64,000 nt of DNA from Sporopachydermia quercuum (taxonomy: Eukaryota; Ascomycota; Sporopachydermiomycetes; Sporopachydermiales; Sporopachydermiaceae), in assembly GCA_001599295.1 (NCBI GenBank), contig BCGN01000007.1, positions 136,433 to 200,432 on the forward strand. Direction: 5' to 3'. Made by a program: the position numbers and the translations under genes. The notes below the pieces were generated by a model. It had not been told where the DNA came from and did not search any database. It saw nothing but the letters and a program-made list of their open reading frames with translations. This document shows positions 2,393-50,435 of this stretch, piece after piece. Each line of letters begins with the position of its first letter. The stretch's first letter is position 1.

Positions 2393-3344
2393 ATGCCTCG
2401 AAACACTGTCTTTGTGAGTGGTAAGTATATGAAGACTTTCGAACTAGAGAGATAGCATTGTTAGAATGAATGAGGATCCGAGGATTCTCTGCTCGGTCGC
2501 CCTCATGAAAGGAAAAAGCCCATGAAACGACATCAATTTGCTATACTAACCAGTGAATATCAGGCTTTTCTGTAGGTGTCAGAGCCCGAGATATTGCACA
2601 CGAATTTGAAGAGTAAGTATAAAGGGTTTGAAAAGTATTATAGCTAGTTCGGTAGAGGAGCCATTGATATTGAATGGAATCGTGACTAACGAGCTTTTCA
2701 TTGTCAGATTTGGCCCTTTGATAAGATGCGATATCCCACCATGCAGAAATGGAAGACCTTACGCTTTCGTTGAGTTTGAAGATGAAAGAGACGCAGACGA
2801 AGCTATTTATCAAATGGATAGAAGAAGACTTCGTAACGGAGATCTAGTGAAATGTGAACTCGCCAAATCAGCACCATATTCTAAAGGTGATAGAAAAGAT
2901 AGGGGTTATAGAGAAAGAGATTCCGGAGGTAGAAATAAACGAGGACGAGATAGGGATCGAAAAAGGGATAGGGCCAGAGGTTCGAGAAAGGGAAGTAGAT
3001 CACCTGATAAGGAGAAGGATACAAACAGAAGCAGAAGCGGAAGCAGATCACGAGATAGAACTACAAGCAGAAGCAGAAGTCAAAGCCCCACAAGGAGTAG
3101 ATCTGGAAGTAGGAGCCGATCACCAGCTCAGAGCAATGGAGGTAACAATGATTCATCAGTTAATGAACACAAGGAAGGTTCTAATGATGATACTGCAAAT
3201 GGAGACAACCAAGATAACAGTGAGGAAACTAACGGTAAAAATGTTCCAGCTGAACAAGAATCTAATAACAATGTAGCTGGCGTGCCTGAAAATGCAGCTG
3301 ATGAGAAAAGAACTAAGGACTCATCAAAAGGACAATCGACATAA
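2393..3344 (+). CDS. SR-type RNA-binding protein (one RRM plus RS domain), three exons
   Basis: Join 2393-2420, 2564-2612 and 2708-3344; 237 residues. Both introns start GTAAGT and contain an ACTAAC branch site (2545-2550 and 2685-2690), with acceptors at 2563 and 2707. Splicing restores an RRM: RNP2-like TVFVSG at residues 5-10 and RNP1-like RPYAFVEF at 42-49, in the form typical of SRSF1/Srp2-type proteins. Residues about 100-165 form an Arg/Ser and Arg/Asp-rich domain with many RS, SR and SRSP units. The tail is acidic and polar (Asn, Glu, Asp). Known family role: nuclear pre-mRNA splicing factor or mRNP adaptor, phosphorylated by SRPK kinases. An ATG at 2628 in the same frame lies inside intron 2 and is not the start, since it would remove half of the RRM. 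Which SR orthologue this is remains uncertain. Confidence 0.88.
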
Positions 3345-3565: not shown

Positions 3566-4558
3566 TTATTCAATAACGCATACAATTTTACCCTTACTAA
3601 CGTTTGATGCCATATAATCATGTGCTTTCGAGATATCTTTCCAGTTGAACACTTTATCAATAGGTATGACAAATTCACCAGATTGGATTCTGGGCAAATA
3701 TCTTTGTTTAATAGTATCAAAAATCTTTGCTTGGTATTCAATACTTCTTGATCTCAATGTGGTTCCCTCTATTTTCAATTTTTTCCTTAATATTTCAAAT
3801 AAATCAACATTTTCTGCAACTGCACCACCCATAATAGCCAGCACTATTAGTTGGCCTTCTGGTCGAAGAATCTTCAGGTCTTTGTTAAAATAGCTACCTC
3901 CAACAGGATCAATTATAAGATCAACACCATCTTTATTTTGAATCACTTGTTCAAAATCTTCTTTCTTGTAGTTGATTGTTGTACATTTACCCTTAGATAT
4001 ATGATCCATTATTTCTTTAACAGCAGTACACTTTTCATCAGTTCCCATAGTTAGGAACACTTCTGAGCCTTCAGAAGTAGCGATTTGACCAGCTGCTATA
4101 CCTACACCGCTTGCGCCAGCATGAATTAACACTTTTTCGCTTTTGTTTATATTTCCAACTGCTGTAAGACATTGAGTTGCTGTTGCCCACACCTCGGGGA
4201 TGGCAGCTCCTTTTATCTCATCAATATCACCTAATGGCAAAAGCATTCGTTCGTCAGCAGCTACATATTCAGCATAAGCTCCTCCGTATACCAAGCCAAA
4301 TACACCGTCTCCATTTTTAAAGACCGTTGAGCCATTAATGTCAGCTATAGTCCCAGAGAACTCAACTCCCAATGTGTCTGGGGCATTTGGTGGCATAGGG
4401 TAAAAACCTTCTCTTTGAAGCAAATCCATACGATTTAAACCAAACGCTCTCACTTTGACAAGTACTTGGCCTTCGGTGAGCTTGGGAAGAGAAAAATCCA
4501 CTATTTCTAGTGCCGAAGAAGGACCCTTACCATTTTGCACTCTAACAGCTTTCATCAT
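3566..4558 (-). CDS. NAD(P)H quinone oxidoreductase, PIG3/TP53I3 type
   Basis: This 330-residue protein is a zinc-free medium-chain dehydrogenase/reductase. It has the GroES-like N-terminal fold (about 1-120, with LNRMDLLQREGFYP near 41-54 and LGVEFSG at 63-69), the nucleotide-binding motif HAGASGVG at 146-153, and the PIG3-type signatures NYKKEDF, DPVGGSY and a C-terminal SKGKIV. Known family activity: NADPH-dependent one-electron reduction of quinones, probably cytosolic; PIG3 proteins occur in bacteria and many eukaryotes. The start is a double ATG (4558 and 4555) and either may be used. It converges with the SR gene, 221 bp away. The general class is certain; the substrate is not. Confidence 0.87.
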   Translation of the reverse strand: MMKAVRVQNGKGPSSALEIVDFSLPKLTEGQVLVKVRAFGLNRMDLLQREGFYPMPPNAPDTLGVEFSGTIADINGSTVFKNGDGVFGLVYGGAYAEYVAADERMLLPLGDIDEIKGAAIPEVWATATQCLTAVGNINKSEKVLIHAGASGVGIAAGQIATSEGSEVFLTMGTDEKCTAVKEIMDHISKGKCTTINYKKEDFEQVIQNKDGVDLIIDPVGGSYFNKDLKILRPEGQLIVLAIMGGAVAENVDLFEILRKKLKIEGTTLRSRSIEYQAKIFDTIKQRYLPRIQSGEFVIPIDKVFNWKDISKAHDYMASNVSKGKIVCVIE

Positions 4559-17841: not shown

Positions 17842-18545
17842 TTAATGGTCGGGGTTTATTGAAACAAATTGAATTCCTTCTTTTTCACGCTCGTCTCGTT
17901 TTGCTTTCTCTGCTGTATTGTTAGTAGTATTCACTGAAAAGCTGTAGGTATCTTTCTACCATGCGTAATTAATAGAATATTCAAAAGTTTCAACTTACGT
18001 ATCTCTCTCATATAACCTTCTCTAGGAAGGTCAATTGGATTAAGAACTCTAGATGAAGTTCCATATCCATTAAAGCTACAGTAGTCTAGAGAATACATCT
18101 TCCTTAGACCTAGAATTACTTCTGCATCCTCTAATGCACCTGAATTGATCAAAGTCTCATTGTAATGCTTTCCTTCTTGTTTCAATGATAAAAATGAGAT
18201 CAGCTTTTCATTTGTCAGCCCAGAAATACGTTTCACAGTGTTTGTATAATCTGGAAGGGAAGGCGTTGGCACCGGCAACGTGAGGCTTTTGAATGTGATC
18301 TCTGGTTTTGATTCTACTGATGATGGGTCAATTGTTGAGGACGTCTTAGTATTATCACTACTTGTTTCTTGGTCCACCTTGATTTCACTGGAGATGAGGG
18401 TTTCAGTATTCACTTTTAAACCGTCAGCTGCTGAATTATTTTCTTTATCAACAGCTGCATTTTCAGTCTTGTTTATATGATCATTTTCCCTGTCTTTATC
18501 ACTATCGCTCTCACTGTTACTGTCATAACCAACTAGTCCACTCAT
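17842..18545 (-). CDS. HCNGP/SAP30BP-like nuclear protein, two exons
   Basis: Exon 1 runs 18545-17999 and exon 2 most likely 17909-17842; 204 residues. The intron has donor GTAAGT at 17998 and a TACTAAC branch site at 17926-17920, then two possible acceptors three bases apart (ends at 17913 and 17910). The first exon has an acidic Ser/Asp start (GYDSNSESDSDKD, as in human SAP30BP), a disordered stretch, and then the HCNGP domain (about 105-200): KQEGKHYNETLINS, a degenerate middle part, and NPIDLPREGYMREI. Exon 2 completes it with KAKRDEREKEGIQFVS, just as the family ends in KAKKERTKIEFV. Human SAP30BP is a nuclear protein linked to transcription repression and to splicing of short introns. 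Without splicing the frame would end in unrelated residues. The family call is from pattern alone. Confidence 0.75.
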
Positions 18546-19195: not shown

Positions 19196-20245
19196 TTAAC
19201 GCAAGAAATTCTGTATACCATCCATAGAGAAACTCTTAAGTTTCCGTTCTTTCAGTAACTTAATTTGTTTCGATGATAATGCATTTAAGCTTCTTGAATG
19301 GGGAATTGATTTAGTTCTGACTGATTGGTCAATGATTGCTGACTTGGTAGTAGTTGCACCAGACTTCAATTTATTCTGTAGATATTTTCTTGGTGGAGTA
19401 ACAAATGATGGTAAAGAAAACTCTTCATTAGAGTTCTTCACAGTTGAAATAATATTGTTGAAAATATTCAATCGGGAGTTGAAAGTGTTTTCTAGTTTCA
19501 TAAAGGTGTGTAGTTGAATTGGTTCTCTTATAGGAGCTGATGTGATGGTATTATTAGTGTTGTTTGTATTATTATTATGGGATGAATTATCAGGTATGGT
19601 AATAAATCCTTTATAATCTTCAATGCTAAGGTCAGTCAATGGCTGATGTAGGTGAGGTGTGGGCGATCCTGCTGATACTTTGATGACATCTCCAGTACCA
19701 GGTTCAATGTTCTCCTTGATATCAGTAGTATCTGTGTTTACAGGGGTGAATAATGTTTCATTTCCATTATCAGATGCAATTTTAAGAGTATCCTGAAACA
19801 CATTGAACTTCAATTTGGGTTTTGCTCTTTGGATTCTTGCTTTCCATTTAGATGATGACTTGTTACTATTAGAACTTACGAATGGCGATCCAATACTAGC
19901 AGTAAACATTGAATCTTCCGTATTTGCTTTAGGTGTACCAGGGGCCAAATCCTTATTAGAATCTGCTCTTTTCATTGAGAATTTGAGAAGTCTCGCTGGT
20001 GATGAAATCTTTCCCCCTTCAGGACNAGGAGAGTTATTAGCAGAGTTAGAATCCAAGTGCTGGAGTGGGATTCTTGAAGGAGAGTGACTAGGGGAAGATT
20101 TTGTAGGAGACTTGCCCGTTTTTCCGGGGGAATCCAGCATTACTTTCAGTTTCAGTGATTCATTTTTATTTAGTTTTTTCAGTGGTGATTGTTTCTTGGG
20201 CGATTGGCTTGAAGACCGTTTCATTGTTTGAGAACCTCGTTCCAT
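19196..20245 (-). CDS. Disordered protein with many CDK sites and a KEN box
   Basis: The first in-frame ATG is at 20245 (349 residues); the open frame above it has no ATG before a stop. The protein looks largely disordered. Its N-terminal 90 residues hold six full CDK consensus sites S-P-x-K/R (starting at 15, 20, 39, 46, 55 and 82), with another, TPPR, near residue 290. A KEN box, the degron read by APC/C-Cdh1, is at 177-179 (DIKENIEP). A short ordered-looking patch KLKFNVFQDTL lies near 144-154 and another, LTDLSIEDYKGFITIP, near 203. The C-terminus is basic and ends in NFLR. These features suggest a cell-cycle-regulated protein, such as a CDK substrate destroyed late in mitosis. I cannot name a family. 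Confidence 0.7.
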   Translation of the reverse strand: MERGSQTMKRSSSQSPKKQSPLKKLNKNESLKLKVMLDSPGKTGKSPTKSSPSHSPSRIPLQHLDSNSANNSPXPEGGKISSPARLLKFSMKRADSNKDLAPGTPKANTEDSMFTASIGSPFVSSNSNKSSSKWKARIQRAKPKLKFNVFQDTLKIASDNGNETLFTPVNTDTTDIKENIEPGTGDVIKVSAGSPTPHLHQPLTDLSIEDYKGFITIPDNSSHNNNTNNTNNTITSAPIREPIQLHTFMKLENTFNSRLNIFNNIISTVKNSNEEFSLPSFVTPPRKYLQNKLKSGATTTKSAIIDQSVRTKSIPHSRSLNALSSKQIKLLKERKLKSFSMDGIQNFLR

Positions 20246-21557
20246 TGTAACACTTGAATTGGAATCGCTAGATCTCTCAAAATACAATAAAATGTTCAGT
20301 TAATAGTTCTCAACGATAGTTTCTGATTTTCAATGACTCAAATGTTCTCGTTCTTGTTGATACTATGATTAGTGGTTCTATAGTCTTCAGTAGATCATAG
20401 AATCAAGCACAAGCAGTCTATCTATTATAGCGATCGGCTTGTGGTTTTTCTCTCGATTCTACAGTTGCAAATTTGGTTCAGATATCAATTCACTTTCTAA
20501 ATCAATTCTAACTATTTTCAACCACTTCCTTTTAGTTTGAATCGTTGCTGGTAAGGAAAAGTAGACATCTATTCATCTTTGTGTAGGAAAGAAATCTCCC
20601 TACTTTAAAAGCTATAGGAAAGGCCTCTCTCTATTACACTGCGCGTTGTGTACGTGACTGAATTAACGTTTACATGTAGAAGATCTATATTTTGAACTTT
20701 AATTAAACTCAAAGCTATTATTGAAATAAATATATCACGAATTACCCCCTTCATTCAAAGGAGGTACTACGCAAATAGACTAAGAATCTTCTTGAAAGAA
20801 GCAGAAAGCAAGGCGTTTGTTTCTTATTTGAGCTTGATAAGAAACAGTAGGCTATCTAAAACCCTTTTCGAGATTTTCAGCTAAGGTCAAATCACTGGTA
20901 TGCAATTTGGTAATTCCTAAGGATTCACTCAATTCTACTCTCTATCTCATGTGACCCTTCATTCTTGCCATATCAGAAAATTGACTTACTGAGTTGGAAT
21001 TTTGACCTTCGCGTCTCCTCCCACTTACTTAGCTGGCAAGAAGTGAAAATTTTCAAATAAAGTTTCGAGGTAGGAATAAATTCCATTAAGCGGATAAGAG
21101 AAAGCAATGAATAGAAAGAAGAGAATAGAACAATCAAAGGGCATTTATTTCGATATTAGCTATGGAAGTTTGTTGATAATTTTGTTTAGAAGCTTTCAGC
21201 AAAAAAGTCAGCAATCCAGATAAAGTCTCATCTATGTTGAATGCTACCTGTTTTGTTGATAAATATTGCAAATGTGACTGGCAAGAAGCTTGACTGTAAA
21301 TAGAAAATGGACAAACCAATGAACAGTTGAACTACTCATCTAGAATTTTAGGAATACAGCCAAATTTTAAAGAGTATATTAGTCAATAAGAATATTTCAG
21401 GATTTAACTGTTTCTATTCAAAAACAAAATACATTGTGCCAACTGGTTAAAATAACAAATACTCAGTAGTATTAAAACTATATACAATGTAAATCAGAAG
21501 ACCATTGTCAATACTAATATCCAAGTAATCTAATACCTAAAATAGTAAGAAACATGT
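20246..21557. other. Intergenic region between two minus-strand genes
   Basis: The 1.3 kb holds the promoter of the gene ending at 19196 and the 3' side of trpB. One 61-codon minus-strand ORF (21134-21319) shows no domain. No RNA gene or repeat was recognised. Confidence 0.4.
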
Positions 21558-22784
21558 TTAATATTTCTTGGTAATCAATTCAGGATAGTTTTCACAGACG
21601 TAATCAATATCCTTATCACCTCTACCACTTAAGTTNATAAGAACCTTAGAACCCTTAAACTTATCAGCGTTGAAGATAGCATAGGCAACAGCATGCGATG
21701 ATTCTAAGGCAGGGATTATACCTTCATACTTACTCAACATAAAGAAAGCATCAACAGTCTCTTTATCAGTAGCACCAACGTTGGTTTCGGTACGACCAAC
21801 ATCTCTCCAGAAAGCATGCTCAGGTCCGATTGATGGATAATCTAAACCGGAAGCAATAGAGTGAACGGGAGCAGGTTCTCCGTTTTCATCCTTAAGCATA
21901 ACGGAATTGAAACCATGCATAATACCTTCGGAACCAACTGCTAAAGAAGCAGCATGATCACCAAGCTTCTCAATGCCTTTTCCTAATGGTTCAACACCGT
22001 AAAGCTTGACATTTTCATCATCAACGAAACCAGAAAAAATACCAGCAGCGTTAGAACCACCACCACAACAGGCAATAACATGATCAGGTAAAGAACCAGT
22101 AGCTTCCAAGAATTGTTCGCGAGCTTCAATTCCGACCACTGATTGGAAGTTTCTAACCATCTTTGGGAAAGGATGTGGTCCAACTGCTGAACCAATACAG
22201 TACATAGTTGAAACAGGATCCTTCATATACTCTTGGAAAGCTAAATCAACAGCTTCTTTCAAAGTCCTCAAACCAAAAGTAGCGGGAATGACTCTGGCAC
22301 CAAGAATTTCCATTCTCAAAACATTGGGGTGTTCCTTTGCCATATCAACTTCTCCCATATAAATATCACATTCAAGACCAAAGAATGCTGCAGCGGTTGC
22401 CAGTGCTACACCATGTTGTCCAGCGCCAGTTTCAGCAAGAATCTTCTTCTTACCGAGCTTTTTTGCTAACAATGCTTCAGCCATACAATGATTAAGCTTA
22501 TGAGCTCCCATGTGATTAAGATCCTCTCTTTTCAAGTAAAGATCAAATCCGAGCTTTTCACTCAATCTCTTGCAGTATGAGATCGGAGTTGGTCTGCCCT
22601 GGAAATTTTTACGGATATCCCTTAATTCTTTCAAATATTCAGGATCTTTCCATAATTTTTCGTACTCAGCAGCAATCAAATCCATCTCCTGTTGAATTTG
22701 AGGTGGAACAAATGATCCTCCATATTTACCAAAGTATCCCTTTTCATCGGGGTAGTTCTCCAAGTATGGCTTTTCGAAAGACAT
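21558..22784 (-). CDS. trpB: Stand-alone tryptophan synthase beta subunit (TrpB)
   Basis: This 408-residue, intron-free gene encodes a complete TrpB. It has [14 protein letters not shown] near 15-28, the PLP lysine Lys96 in GAHKLNH, the catalytic Glu118 in [11 protein letters not shown], the PLP-phosphate loop GGGSNA at 241-246, and Ser386 in LSGRGDKD, which contacts the PLP ring nitrogen in this family. The reaction is indole plus L-serine to L-tryptophan. No alpha subunit (TrpA) domain is present or encoded nearby, whereas fungal TRP5 is a TrpA-TrpB fusion of about 700 residues. The sequence around the lysine ([10 protein letters not shown]) also differs from the TRP5 form (HTGSHKINN). This suggests an extra enzyme gained from bacteria. 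Its codons are strongly yeast-like (GGT, TCT, GCT, AAC), so it is well adapted and probably well expressed. The ATG at 22784 has a good context; the open frame above it has no ATG. Seipin diverges 750 bp away. Confidence 0.96.
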
Positions 22785-23535
22785 GGTTAAAATAAACAAT
22801 CTTATACGTTAGTGATAGTTGTTTGACGTAGAACTCAACAACTGAGATAGTTAATAAGTTTCACCTGTGCTCCAAGCTTTTGAATACAAGTCAATTTTTT
22901 GTATTCAATGAGCTAATGATTCTGTGGGGTTTTCAGGCTCCTTCGTGCTGCCATTTGTTTTTCTCTCTTTTCCTCTTTTCTTCTTGGACAATTCACTCAT
23001 ACCTCTCCCTCGGACGAGGCCAAACAATTCTCCACTTCACCCTGTTATCAGACGAAATCTAACTTTTACTGAATGAAGAAGGTTCAATTTTCGCTGTAGT
23101 CTTTCCATTTTGATGATAAGATTAGAATACTAAAATGCTAAACAGGGAGATAAGAGACATTTGCTGTCCTCCCTAGTAAGTTTAGTTTACATCTAACTTA
23201 AAGTTTTAATGAACTCTAAAACCAACTTTAACCTTAAAATGCTTTCTTTCGTTGCTATAAGGTTCTCGTTCATCAAAGAATTATTGATCACATAATATTC
23301 TCTAAATTACGATTACATCATCTCTTTGTATGCAATTGATGCTTTCCGAAACATATTACTTAGATGTTTTCTCTTCTTCTTCTGTCTACTGGTACAGAGA
23401 AAGTGCAATAAAAGGCTTGTGAATGGTACATCTAGTTTNTTATTTGATATTTTCACTGTCTGAATTACCTGATTTATGCTGAACAAAAAATTGACTCCGC
23501 TGGCTGAATTTTAACCAGGTTTAATCCATTCTAGA
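22785..23535. other. Divergent promoter between trpB and seipin
   Basis: This 750 bp serves both genes. A TGACTC, the core of a Gcn4 site, occurs at 23492-23497, close to seipin and far from trpB; one such hexamer is weak evidence. A pyrimidine-rich stretch lies near 22950-23000. Confidence 0.4.
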
Positions 23536-24783
23536 ATGGCCGAATCCAATAGACGCTCAACGTCAAGCCTTGTGGGGTCAACGCCGAGATCGTCATTGGA
23601 ACGGCATTCGGAACGGCGATCAGAGTCCGAGGAACCATTACCGAGATCTGCGCCCTCTCCAGTTTCTAATGATACGTTTTATGAAGCTACAATGAAACTA
23701 GTCAGTTCGGCTCTAGCTTCTGTTAAGTATATCCTGCCGAAACTCATCCGGGCTTACTTATACATAGCAATTGGCTTATCAACGTTCGGCATATTACTTT
23801 TTTGGGCTGTTATATCCTATTTGTATATATACAATCGGTATATTCCTACAAATGTGACATCTTATCCATTGGAATTTGATTATTGGTCTCCAGGAATGTT
23901 TGGAAGAAGTTGGAATGAAGGATCAGCCTTTGACCGACACAACGTGATCGGAGTTCAACCGGTCAGTAAAGAGCCCTTTTTCGGTTCCAAATCCCAAACA
24001 GGGAATCAAAAACCTAAGTGTGGTTTTATTACCACTTCTAACTTAATTTCTGACTCGGATGCGCAGCTCAATCCCGCTTTTCTCCATTTACCCTCTGCTT
24101 CAATTCCAATCACCTTGCCTCTGAACGTAGCATATGATGTGCATCTACAACTTGAAATCCCATGCGATCAAGCGGAAACTGTTGCAACAATTCAAGCAAC
24201 TTTTCCCGAATGCTCTTATCCTATTCGAAAACTTATTTTTATTAGCGACCAATGTGAAACCAAATTTAAGCTACTGAAAGCGTTCTTCTACTGGTTTTTA
24301 TATTTAATCCGAGACCGAGTGTCTCCGGGATACAGTGAAGTAAGGTTAATCCAAGGATGGAAAGTTCCTTCCGCATGTGCCAAATCAGGTAATTCCGCCA
24401 GTTTAGGTTCCGATCCAGCAGCCCCATCAGGATGTATAATTAAGTTTTTGCTCGATAGGGATATTAAACTACTCTCAGGATCCAGAGTGGTGTTCATTGC
24501 TAAACTGAAAAGCCTGAGGTATTTAATGTATTATTATAGAATTCCGTCTTTTATAATTGGCGTCTTTGGTTTCTTTGTTGTTGAGTTGCTTGTATGTGGG
24601 ATTGTTGTTACTGTCGTTGTTTTCAATGGCAAGGGAAATAGGAATAATGGTATTAGGGATAGGGAAGGCAGTAGTAATAGCAATGATAGTATCAAAGGTA
24701 ATAATGATAGGCATGGTGATGGTCATAATAGCAGTAATAATAATAGTAATAATGATAATAATAGTAACGACAATTATGGCTGA
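23536..24783 (+). CDS. SEI1: Seipin, lipid-droplet biogenesis protein
   Basis: The 415-residue protein shows seipin architecture: a polar N-terminus rich in Ser/Arg (1-50), a first membrane segment at about 74-98, a lumenal domain starting with the conserved YIP....YPLEFDYW and containing PLNVAYDVHLQLEIP (the seipin core strand pattern), a second membrane segment at about 338-363, and a cytosolic tail. Known role: ring-shaped ER oligomers at ER-lipid droplet contacts that organise droplet formation. The lumenal domain has an insertion before the YDV strand compared with human BSCL2, and the last 45 residues are a low-complexity Asn/Ser/Gly/Asp tail coded by AAT and AGT-type triplet repeats, probably variable in length. 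The family is clear from topology and motifs; overall identity looks low, as is usual for seipins. Confidence 0.82.
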   Translation: MAESNRRSTSSLVGSTPRSSLERHSERRSESEEPLPRSAPSPVSNDTFYEATMKLVSSALASVKYILPKLIRAYLYIAIGLSTFGILLFWAVISYLYIYNRYIPTNVTSYPLEFDYWSPGMFGRSWNEGSAFDRHNVIGVQPVSKEPFFGSKSQTGNQKPKCGFITTSNLISDSDAQLNPAFLHLPSASIPITLPLNVAYDVHLQLEIPCDQAETVATIQATFPECSYPIRKLIFISDQCETKFKLLKAFFYWFLYLIRDRVSPGYSEVRLIQGWKVPSACAKSGNSASLGSDPAAPSGCIIKFLLDRDIKLLSGSRVVFIAKLKSLRYLMYYYRIPSFIIGVFGFFVVELLVCGIVVTVVVFNGKGNRNNGIRDREGSSNSNDSIKGNNDRHGDGHNSSNNNSNNDNNSNDNYG

Positions 24784-48569: not shown

Positions 48570-50435
48570 ATGGTATGTGAAAAAGATATCAGGCTAGAAT
48601 GACTATTTTTATGTCAAGCGTATTCTTTTGTCGTTTCAATAGTTTAGCTTTTTGGCTGTACGAGGGAATGGAATTGAATACTTCTGATAGTGAAATAACT
48701 CTAGAATGATTGGTTTGAGCACGAGACACAAGAGACTAGTAGATGCAATCAGTTGCGTCTTTGCCAATCATTTCCGTTGATTATTACGTTGATTGGGGTC
48801 ATCAAAACATTCTTTTATTCATGGTTCATCTAGTAATCTCATTCTACAAGTTCATCGCGCTCTATACTACTATTGTTGCATTATGTAAGAGGGTACATTT
48901 ATCTACGGATACTAACTATTGATACAGGGTCAAGGAGCTAGTGGAATGTCAGGAGCTCCTGGCGATAAAAAGAAAGACGATAAGGTATGTTGGTAATTTA
49001 TTCTTGTTGAAAATGGCTAAATTTCTTCCTGTTGTCTGACCTGATTACTAACTATGTCATTTAGAANAAAGACAGTACGTATTTTGTGGAAATGGATTAG
49101 AATTTACCAGAAGAAATCCAAGATCAACTACTCAAAAGCAAGTCGGCCCTAGTTTTTGTACTAACATTCATTTCTCTAGAACCAAAGTATGAACCACCGG
49201 TAGCAACAAGAGTTGGAAGAAAGAGGTCTAAGAAGGGACCAGATACAACTGATAAACTACCGACAGTCTTCCCAACAACTCGTTGTAAATTAAAACTTCT
49301 CAAGATGGAAAGAATCAAAGATCACTTATTATTAGAAGAAGAGTTCATTCAAAACGAAGAACGATTAAAACCAACAGATGCTAAAGTGATTGAAGAACGT
49401 GAAAAAGTCGATGAAATCAGAGGAACTCCAATGAGTGTTGGAACCCTTGAAGAAATCATCGATGATGATCATGCTATTGTTTCCTCAAGTACGGGACCCG
49501 AATACTATGTTTCCATTCTCAGTTTTGTTGATAAGGATCTACTTGAACCCGGAATGTCGGTTCTACTTCATCATAAAACTGTGTCCATAGTGGGAATTCT
49601 TCAAGATGATACGGATCCAATGGTTTCAGTAATGAAGTTAGACAAGTCACCAAAGGAATCGTATGCTGACATTGGTGGATTAGAAGCTCAAATCCAAGAA
49701 ATAAAGGAAGCTGTAGAATTACCTTTAACTCATCCTGAACTTTATGAAGAAATGGGTGTTAAACCCCCAAAGGGTGTCATTCTTTATGGGGCTCCCGGTA
49801 CTGGTAAGACGTTATTAGCAAAAGCAGTTGCCAATCAAACTTCTGCTACTTTCTTGAGAATTGTTGGTTCTGAATTAATTCAAAAGTATCTTGGTGATGG
49901 TCCAAGATTATGTCGTCAGATTTTCAAAGTGGCAGCAGAGAACGCCCCTTCAATTGTATTTATAGATGAGATTGATGCAATTGGTACCAAACGTTATGAG
50001 TCAACTTCAGGAGGCGAACGTGAAGTTCAAAGAACAATGTTGGAACTGTTGAATCAGCTGGATGGATTCGATGATCGAGGTGATGTTAAAGTGATCATGG
50101 CTACGAATAAGATTGAAACGCTAGACCCTGCTTTAATTCGACCAGGTAGAATCGACCGTAAGATTTTGTTTGAGAATCCTGATCCTTCAACTATAAGAAA
50201 GATTCTTCAGATTCACACTAGTAAGATGAGTTTGAATGAGGATGTTAATTTGGAAGAATTAGTTACTGCCAAAGATGATTTGTCTGGTGCTGATATTAAG
50301 GCAATATGTACTGAAGCAGGTTTGTTAGCATTAAGAGAAAGAAGAATGAGAGTCACAGCGGAAGATTTCAGAGCTGCAAAGGAAAGAGTGATGAAGAATA
50401 AAATTGAGGAGAATCTAGAAGGTCTTTATCTGTAA
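48570..50435 (+). CDS. RPT2: 26S proteasome ATPase Rpt2, four exons with two micro-exons
   Basis: Join 48570-48572, 48928-48984, 49065-49074 and 49180-50435; 441 residues (Saccharomyces Rpt2: 437). Exon 1 is only the ATG; donor GTATGT follows at once. Exon 3 is 10 nt. All three introns have TACTAAC or ACTAAC 12-15 nt before the acceptor. The spliced start MGQGASG is the N-myristoylation signal of Rpt2, and exon 4 opens with [14 protein letters not shown], as in the family. Then come the coiled coil and OB domain, Walker A GAPGTGKT at 227-234, Walker [12 protein letters not shown], the AAA second-region arginines, and the C-terminal HbYX motif LYL that docks into the 20S alpha ring. Role: ATP-driven unfolding and gate opening. 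CTG stands at invariant Leu positions (QLDGFDDRG). The ATG at 49305 is internal. One N affects a lysine-rich codon in exon 3. Confidence 0.96.

Follow-up and report, generated by a model that had tools for sequence, protein, structure and literature searches.

The TRP5 enzyme carries the alpha and beta domains of tryptophan synthase in one chain, and the TrpB2 form of the beta subunit is often independent of trpA. The Psilocybe enzyme named TrpB is, despite its name, a fused alpha–beta enzyme as well (PMC11046786). A lone TrpB has been described in Cryptosporidium (cgd5_4560), where it is described as horizontally acquired and proposed to use indole from the gut microbiota (PMC4777385). Here we describe a free-standing TrpB gene on a nuclear contig of a budding yeast. 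Like its Cryptosporidium counterpart (PMC4777385), it is a TrpB in a eukaryote, in all likelihood horizontally acquired, with a possible use of microbial indole. Unlike the yeast, Cryptosporidium is an apicomplexan parasite, and its donor is described as proteobacterial; the two cases are likened by description, not by sequence. With TRP5 and the Psilocybe enzyme, the yeast protein shares the final step of the pathway and a PLP-dependent TrpB domain, whereas those enzymes have both domains fused and the yeast protein is beta only, from another branch. Its closest likeness is to a bacterial clade marked by the motif GAHKLNHCM[A/G]E (hereafter the KLNHC clade), with which it has in common the family, the motif, the length, 130 invariant positions and the lack of a linked trpA; it differs from the sampled members in lying on a nuclear contig and in being at most 70% identical to them. 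In the literature searched (supplements and most subscription papers being outside its scope), there is no report of a yeast with a lone bacterial TrpB: the searched text of PMC13376923 mentions neither tryptophan nor TRP5, and that of PMC5499181 has no TRP5, its single mention of tryptophan concerning mitochondrial UGA. As far as we found, the yeast case is new, while the acquisition of a lone TrpB is already known from Cryptosporidium.

The reading that we consider quite likely is that a TrpB for indole salvage, independent of TrpA, passed long ago from bacteria into a budding yeast, which would recover indole as tryptophan. The analysis shows the sequence, the predicted fold, the clade, the conserved catalytic set and the genomic behavior of the clade in bacteria; we infer the transfer event and the activity, substrate and benefit of the enzyme in the yeast.

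Table 1. Features discussed in the window, i.e., the whole 64-kb stretch of DNA that was analyzed.
Feature	Coordinates	Strand	Remarks
Stand-alone tryptophan synthase beta (TrpB), KLNHC clade	21558..22784	-	408 aa, intronless; ATG at 22784, stop at 21558
Divergent intergenic region, TrpB/seipin	22785..23535	.	751 bp; A at -3 of the TrpB ATG
Seipin, neighbor on the TrpB promoter side	23536..24783	+	Pfam PF06775; start 751 bp from TrpB
ORF on the 3' side of TrpB, 1.27 kb away	19196..20287	-	First in-frame start codon TTG
Proteasome Rpt2, main exon	49305..50435	+	Closest solved chain S. cerevisiae Rpt2
Putative introns, Rpt2 upstream exons	48910-49179	+	GTATGT/GTACGT donors, TACTAAC branch sites, by eye
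RS-rich RRM (SR-like) protein	2628-3344	+	
HCNGP-like protein	17931-18545	-	Sub-threshold match
Zinc-type quinone oxidoreductase	3566-4558	-	

The gene is an uninterrupted frame of 408 codons. Its product scores 499.6 bits against the TIGR00263 trpB profile, above the cut-off of 392.45, and 137 bits against Pfam PALP; among the 25 models listed of 41 that match, the highest score is that of the PRAI-TrpB fusion model NF010376 (519.6 bits, under its own cut-off of 819). The best match by phmmer among solved TrpB chains is 5ey5_B, 'LBCA-b', at 1.5e-135. The AlphaFold model, built from a 10-row alignment (mean pLDDT 77.9, pTM 0.81), gives a predicted TrpB fold, and all 50 PDB matches listed by Foldseek (of 1909) are TrpB or TrpB-derived, with TM-scores by query of 0.84–0.89. 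Confidence in this model is moderate, with pLDDT below 50 at residues 1–3, 274–276 and 312–319, and we claim no fine structural detail from it. Conserved in the yeast protein (E. coli numbering) are K87, E109, Q114, the GGGSN phosphate loop (232–236), D305, E350 and S377, residues whose roles we take to be catalytic. Two other identities were tried and rejected. As a TrpB2 (TIGR01415, trpB_rel), the protein reaches 164.7 bits, far under the cut-off of 518.85, and it is of the TrpB1 type; as a TRP5-type fused enzyme it would need a TrpA domain, and the 408-residue chain is TrpB only. Searched by tblastn with two bacterial TrpA queries, one of them from E. coli, the window gave no match at E ≤ 1, and E. 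coli TrpB matched 22736–21606 at 6e-106. The sequence-only reading, which had called the gene complete and intronless, with its catalytic residues and no TrpA nearby, was right on each of these points.

With the yeast protein as bait, at least 584 relatives were confirmed in bacterial and archaeal genomes, the best 80 of them at 64–69% identity. All 80 carry GAHKLNHCM[A/G], where the usual TrpB has GAHKINN or GAHKVNN; this universality is partly by construction, since AHKLNHCM was among the six search patterns, and whole-protein searches without that pattern recovered the same clade in the sampled phyla. After removal of rows with stops or with fewer than about 350 aligned residues, the yeast TrpB is 63–70% identical to 100 clade rows (which include genes fetched twice with different ends, e.g., L063, L102 and L163), against 43–57% to 45 other bacterial TrpB rows. 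No bacterial relative more than 70% identical was found among the sequences sampled. Counted with the search centers included, the clade is present in at least 4 of 249 sampled genomes in the phylum of G006 (the Clostridia side; G006 and G020 had been found previously), at least 19 of 200 in that of G001 (Campylobacterota, at a strict E of 1e-182, where all 12 genes fetched carry the motif), at least 3 of 198 in that of G004 (Bacteroidota) and at least 7 of 149 in that of G022 (Spirochaetota). Such scattered occurrence among the phyla suggests that the clade is passed between bacteria as well. A sister group of TrpBs, marked by GAHKINHCLG, was also seen, in two genomes each of Bacteroidota and Spirochaetota and in Photobacterium and Acinetobacter records from a plasmid collection (six rows, L156, L157, L165, L166, L167 and L168); the Acinetobacter copy adjoins prmB and aroC.

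In the trees, the sole fungal homologue is one TRP5 beta domain, whose sequence was entered without a database record. FastTree places all 101 KLNHC rows among 153, the yeast TrpB included, in one clade (0.998), with TRP5 beta outside. Under a mixture model in IQ-TREE (63 rows), the KLNHC clade of 39 rows is recovered at 100/99, and the yeast TrpB lies within a 25-row group of Campylobacterota and Clostridia, again at 100/99. That run gave a long-branch warning for outgroup rows, TRP5 among them; when TRP5 and four long rows are left out, the 25-row group still has 100/99, and the yeast TrpB joins four Helicobacter-like rows at 92/83, a placement that is not decisive. Neither a grouping of the yeast protein with Clostridia (p 0.39) nor a sister position to the 24 remaining rows of its group (p 0.30) is rejected; a bacterial KLNHC clade without the yeast protein is rejected at p 0.02, for a group named after the tree had been seen. 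The donor was probably of the Campylobacterota/Clostridia branch. The end branch of the yeast TrpB has a length of 0.42 and its best identity is 70%, so that no close donor was found; the same two values suggest that the transfer is old, with a closer, unsampled donor being possible.

The yeast protein keeps all 130 positions that are invariant in the 100 bacterial clade rows, and 19 of the 20 clade-signature columns. Overall, it differs from these rows at 30–37% of residues. Retention of the invariant positions and of the catalytic set in spite of such divergence indicates, as far as sequence can tell, long purifying selection for the ancestral function, not decay. At the face toward TrpA, where we take R175 and K167 to be contact residues, K167 is kept in the yeast TrpB, and R175 (present in 60% of other TrpBs) is replaced by Q, the residue in 59% of the clade being E.

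How the clade is placed in bacterial genomes bears on its function. None of 80 clade loci has a TrpA match at E ≤ 1e-3 in the sampled flanks, which extend up to 4 kb (at least 1 kb on both sides in 65 of the 80, at least 3 kb in 47; six usable TrpA queries), and all five control loci with a canonical trpB, none of them a source of the queries, gave a match. The yeast protein belongs with this stand-alone KLNHC clade by monophyly and by the lack of an adjacent trpA, in its window as at the bacterial loci. Thirty genomes with a clade member were searched whole. In four of them, one contig carries both clade trpB and trpA, with 32.7 kb to 1.5 Mb between the two; in 21 they are on different contigs, and the distance there rests on the flanks. 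By comparison, 14 TrpBs from outside the clade are found no more than 302 bp from trpA, one of the 14 beside a contig-edge trpA fragment below the cut-off; the canonical trpB of several Campylobacterota genomes is itself not close to trpA. The 80 loci show no conserved operon within flanks of up to 4 kb, the commonest neighbor family (ORFs of at least 100 aa, clustered at 1e-15) being found in nine loci. We also note a contig from a viral collection (L171:1-2051), in which a clade trpB is cut by the contig start and followed, after about 215 bp, by an ORF resembling a serine recombinase by eye; a mobile element may have integrated on the 3' side of this gene.

A further TrpB scores over the cut-off in 25 of the 30 genomes. 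In the remaining five, i.e., G009 and G011 (Clostridia MAGs), G021 (Marinilabiliaceae JC040), and G022 and G023 (Spirochaete MAGs), the clade TrpB is the sole TrpB. The same five have no trpA over the cut-off (G021 has a match at 9.5e-4), no match to indole-glycerol-phosphate synthase (IGPS, trpC) and no trpD over the cut-off, and the 14 control genomes are all positive for each of the three. G007 and G013 also have no trpD over the cut-off, but they do have trpA and IGPS. As four of the five genomes are metagenome-assembled and their completeness is unreported, each single absence is provisional; trp genes are often clustered, and one missing contig could remove several. With trpA, trpC and trpD absent, the clade TrpB of these five genomes could use only outside indole, and the coincidence of the three absences in precisely these five speaks for a salvage enzyme. 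On this genomic evidence, the clade behaves as a TrpA-independent enzyme and is likely dedicated to indole salvage. Indole salvage, which the sequence-only reading had put forward for the yeast gene, is accordingly in keeping with clade genomics as the probable role.

In TrpB, K87 forms a Schiff base with PLP and E109 serves as acid and base, and serine is converted to an aminoacrylate that is attacked by indole. In the yeast, a bacterial TrpB of the TrpA-independent clade, which occurs in the sampled Campylobacterota, Clostridia, Bacteroidota and Spirochaetota, would have arrived directly or via another eukaryote and been retained for a long time in the lineage. The enzyme is probably cytosolic, having no targeting extension past the bacterial start, and would make L-tryptophan from L-serine and free indole. 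Indole released by tryptophanase-bearing bacteria could in this way be recovered and biosynthesis spared, and perhaps indole would also be removed as a growth inhibitor. If TRP5 is present in the host, the salvage role could be redundant. Should salvage prove true, a eukaryote would have gained access to a compound that is both a bacterial signal and a waste product, in a case that is easily tested; a yeast is more convenient in the laboratory than Cryptosporidium when the question is if an acquired TrpB really salvages indole. The genomic pattern of the bacterial clade, away from trpA and kept without the pathway, also marks it as a possible natural stand-alone biocatalyst.

The transfer may be real and the main role something other than tryptophan nutrition, such as the removal of toxic indole or the making of another beta-substituted alanine from serine and some other nucleophile. 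TrpBs are promiscuous, the Foldseek matches listed include TrpBs engineered for other substrates, and nutrition alone may be a weak benefit if TRP5 is present. However, the retention of all 130 clade-invariant positions speaks against another substrate, and the five genomes in which the clade member is the sole TrpB, without trpA, trpC or trpD, point to tryptophan supply; we regard a non-nutritional main role as unlikely, if the least unlikely of the alternatives. Somewhat less probable still is that an early-branching yeast living in a community that exchanges indole uses the bacterial TrpB as its working tryptophan synthase, possibly with TRP5 lost and with a dependence on bacterial indole.

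Seipin, a PIR cell-wall protein and an Rpt2 with apparent yeast-type introns, closest among solved chains to that of S. cerevisiae, give the window a yeast setting, in agreement with the ordinary yeast neighbors named in the sequence-only reading. The window also encodes a transporter, a BTB protein, a DUF1765 protein, a TauD-family dioxygenase, transportin, PP2C and a Pmp3-domain protein. Neither a tRNA nor an Rfam match was found in its 64 kb. All three CTG codons of the Rpt2 main exon fall on leucines conserved with S. cerevisiae Rpt2, which argues against both a CUG-Ser and a CUG-Ala yeast as host: the contig is budding-yeast nuclear DNA with standard decoding of CTG as leucine. The intergenic region between TrpB and seipin has one TGACTC, presumably a Gcn4-like motif, whose position (23492) is 708 bp away from where TrpB starts. 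A Gcn4 signal was nevertheless rejected: the window has 22 copies of TGACTC/GAGTCA (a count without shuffle control), and a single match in a promoter region is not notable.

Codon usage fits the host and is not diagnostic. The yeast TrpB has a codon score of 0.738, within the 0.60–0.77 of 13 other frames in the window, so that the host-like codons claimed earlier are there; as an argument they are weak, because 13 of 95 bacterial clade members score 0.738 or higher with the yeast codon table, and by codons alone an AT-rich bacterium would be possible. These bacterial scores, together with a 3' neighbor whose Pfam search gave no match, are what could be said for bacterial contamination joined to the contig through an assembly error. 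Against it, TrpB is internal to a single contig, with seipin 751 bp away and fungal families such as PIR in the window, and no sampled bacterial sequence is more than 70% identical to it. In addition, its GC3 of 0.31 is within the 0.21–0.37 of the other window frames, whereas the eight top-scoring bacterial clade genes have 0.11–0.17. The gene also has, like its neighbors, a single N at a third codon position (21636, in an ATN codon); in the 15 coding frames, 12 of 20 Ns are at third positions, seven at second and one at first. We consider contamination very improbable.

That a TRP5 beta domain, available in fungi for duplication, was duplicated and split off is scarcely credible, given that the AU test rejects the yeast protein with TRP5 beta at p 4.8e-115, that the two are 46% identical (both values from the one TRP5 sequence, entered without a database record) and that the clade signature is common to bacteria. 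The protein tree, proposed with the sequence-only reading as a check, therefore has the yeast TrpB inside a bacterial TrpB clade and apart from that TRP5 beta domain. Of the old bacterial transfer claimed there, the bacterial origin stands (0.998 in FastTree, 100/99 in IQ-TREE and the AU test against TRP5), and its age is a reading of branch length.

Several further observations concern the host and the window. The 5' part of Rpt2 (48900–49305) apparently has three introns, above expectation for an intron-poor budding yeast, which is of use in placing the host. The RS-rich RRM (SR-like) protein and the HCNGP-like protein (23.3 bits against a threshold of 26.3) are likewise encoded in the window, and with the Rpt2 introns they hint at an early-branching budding-yeast lineage. 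The best solved relatives of the zinc-type quinone oxidoreductase are named merely quinone oxidoreductase. Finally, the window holds 66 Ns, all single except one adjacent pair and about one every 970 bp; they look like masked heterozygous sites, so that a diploid strain, or else a consensus assembly, is probable.
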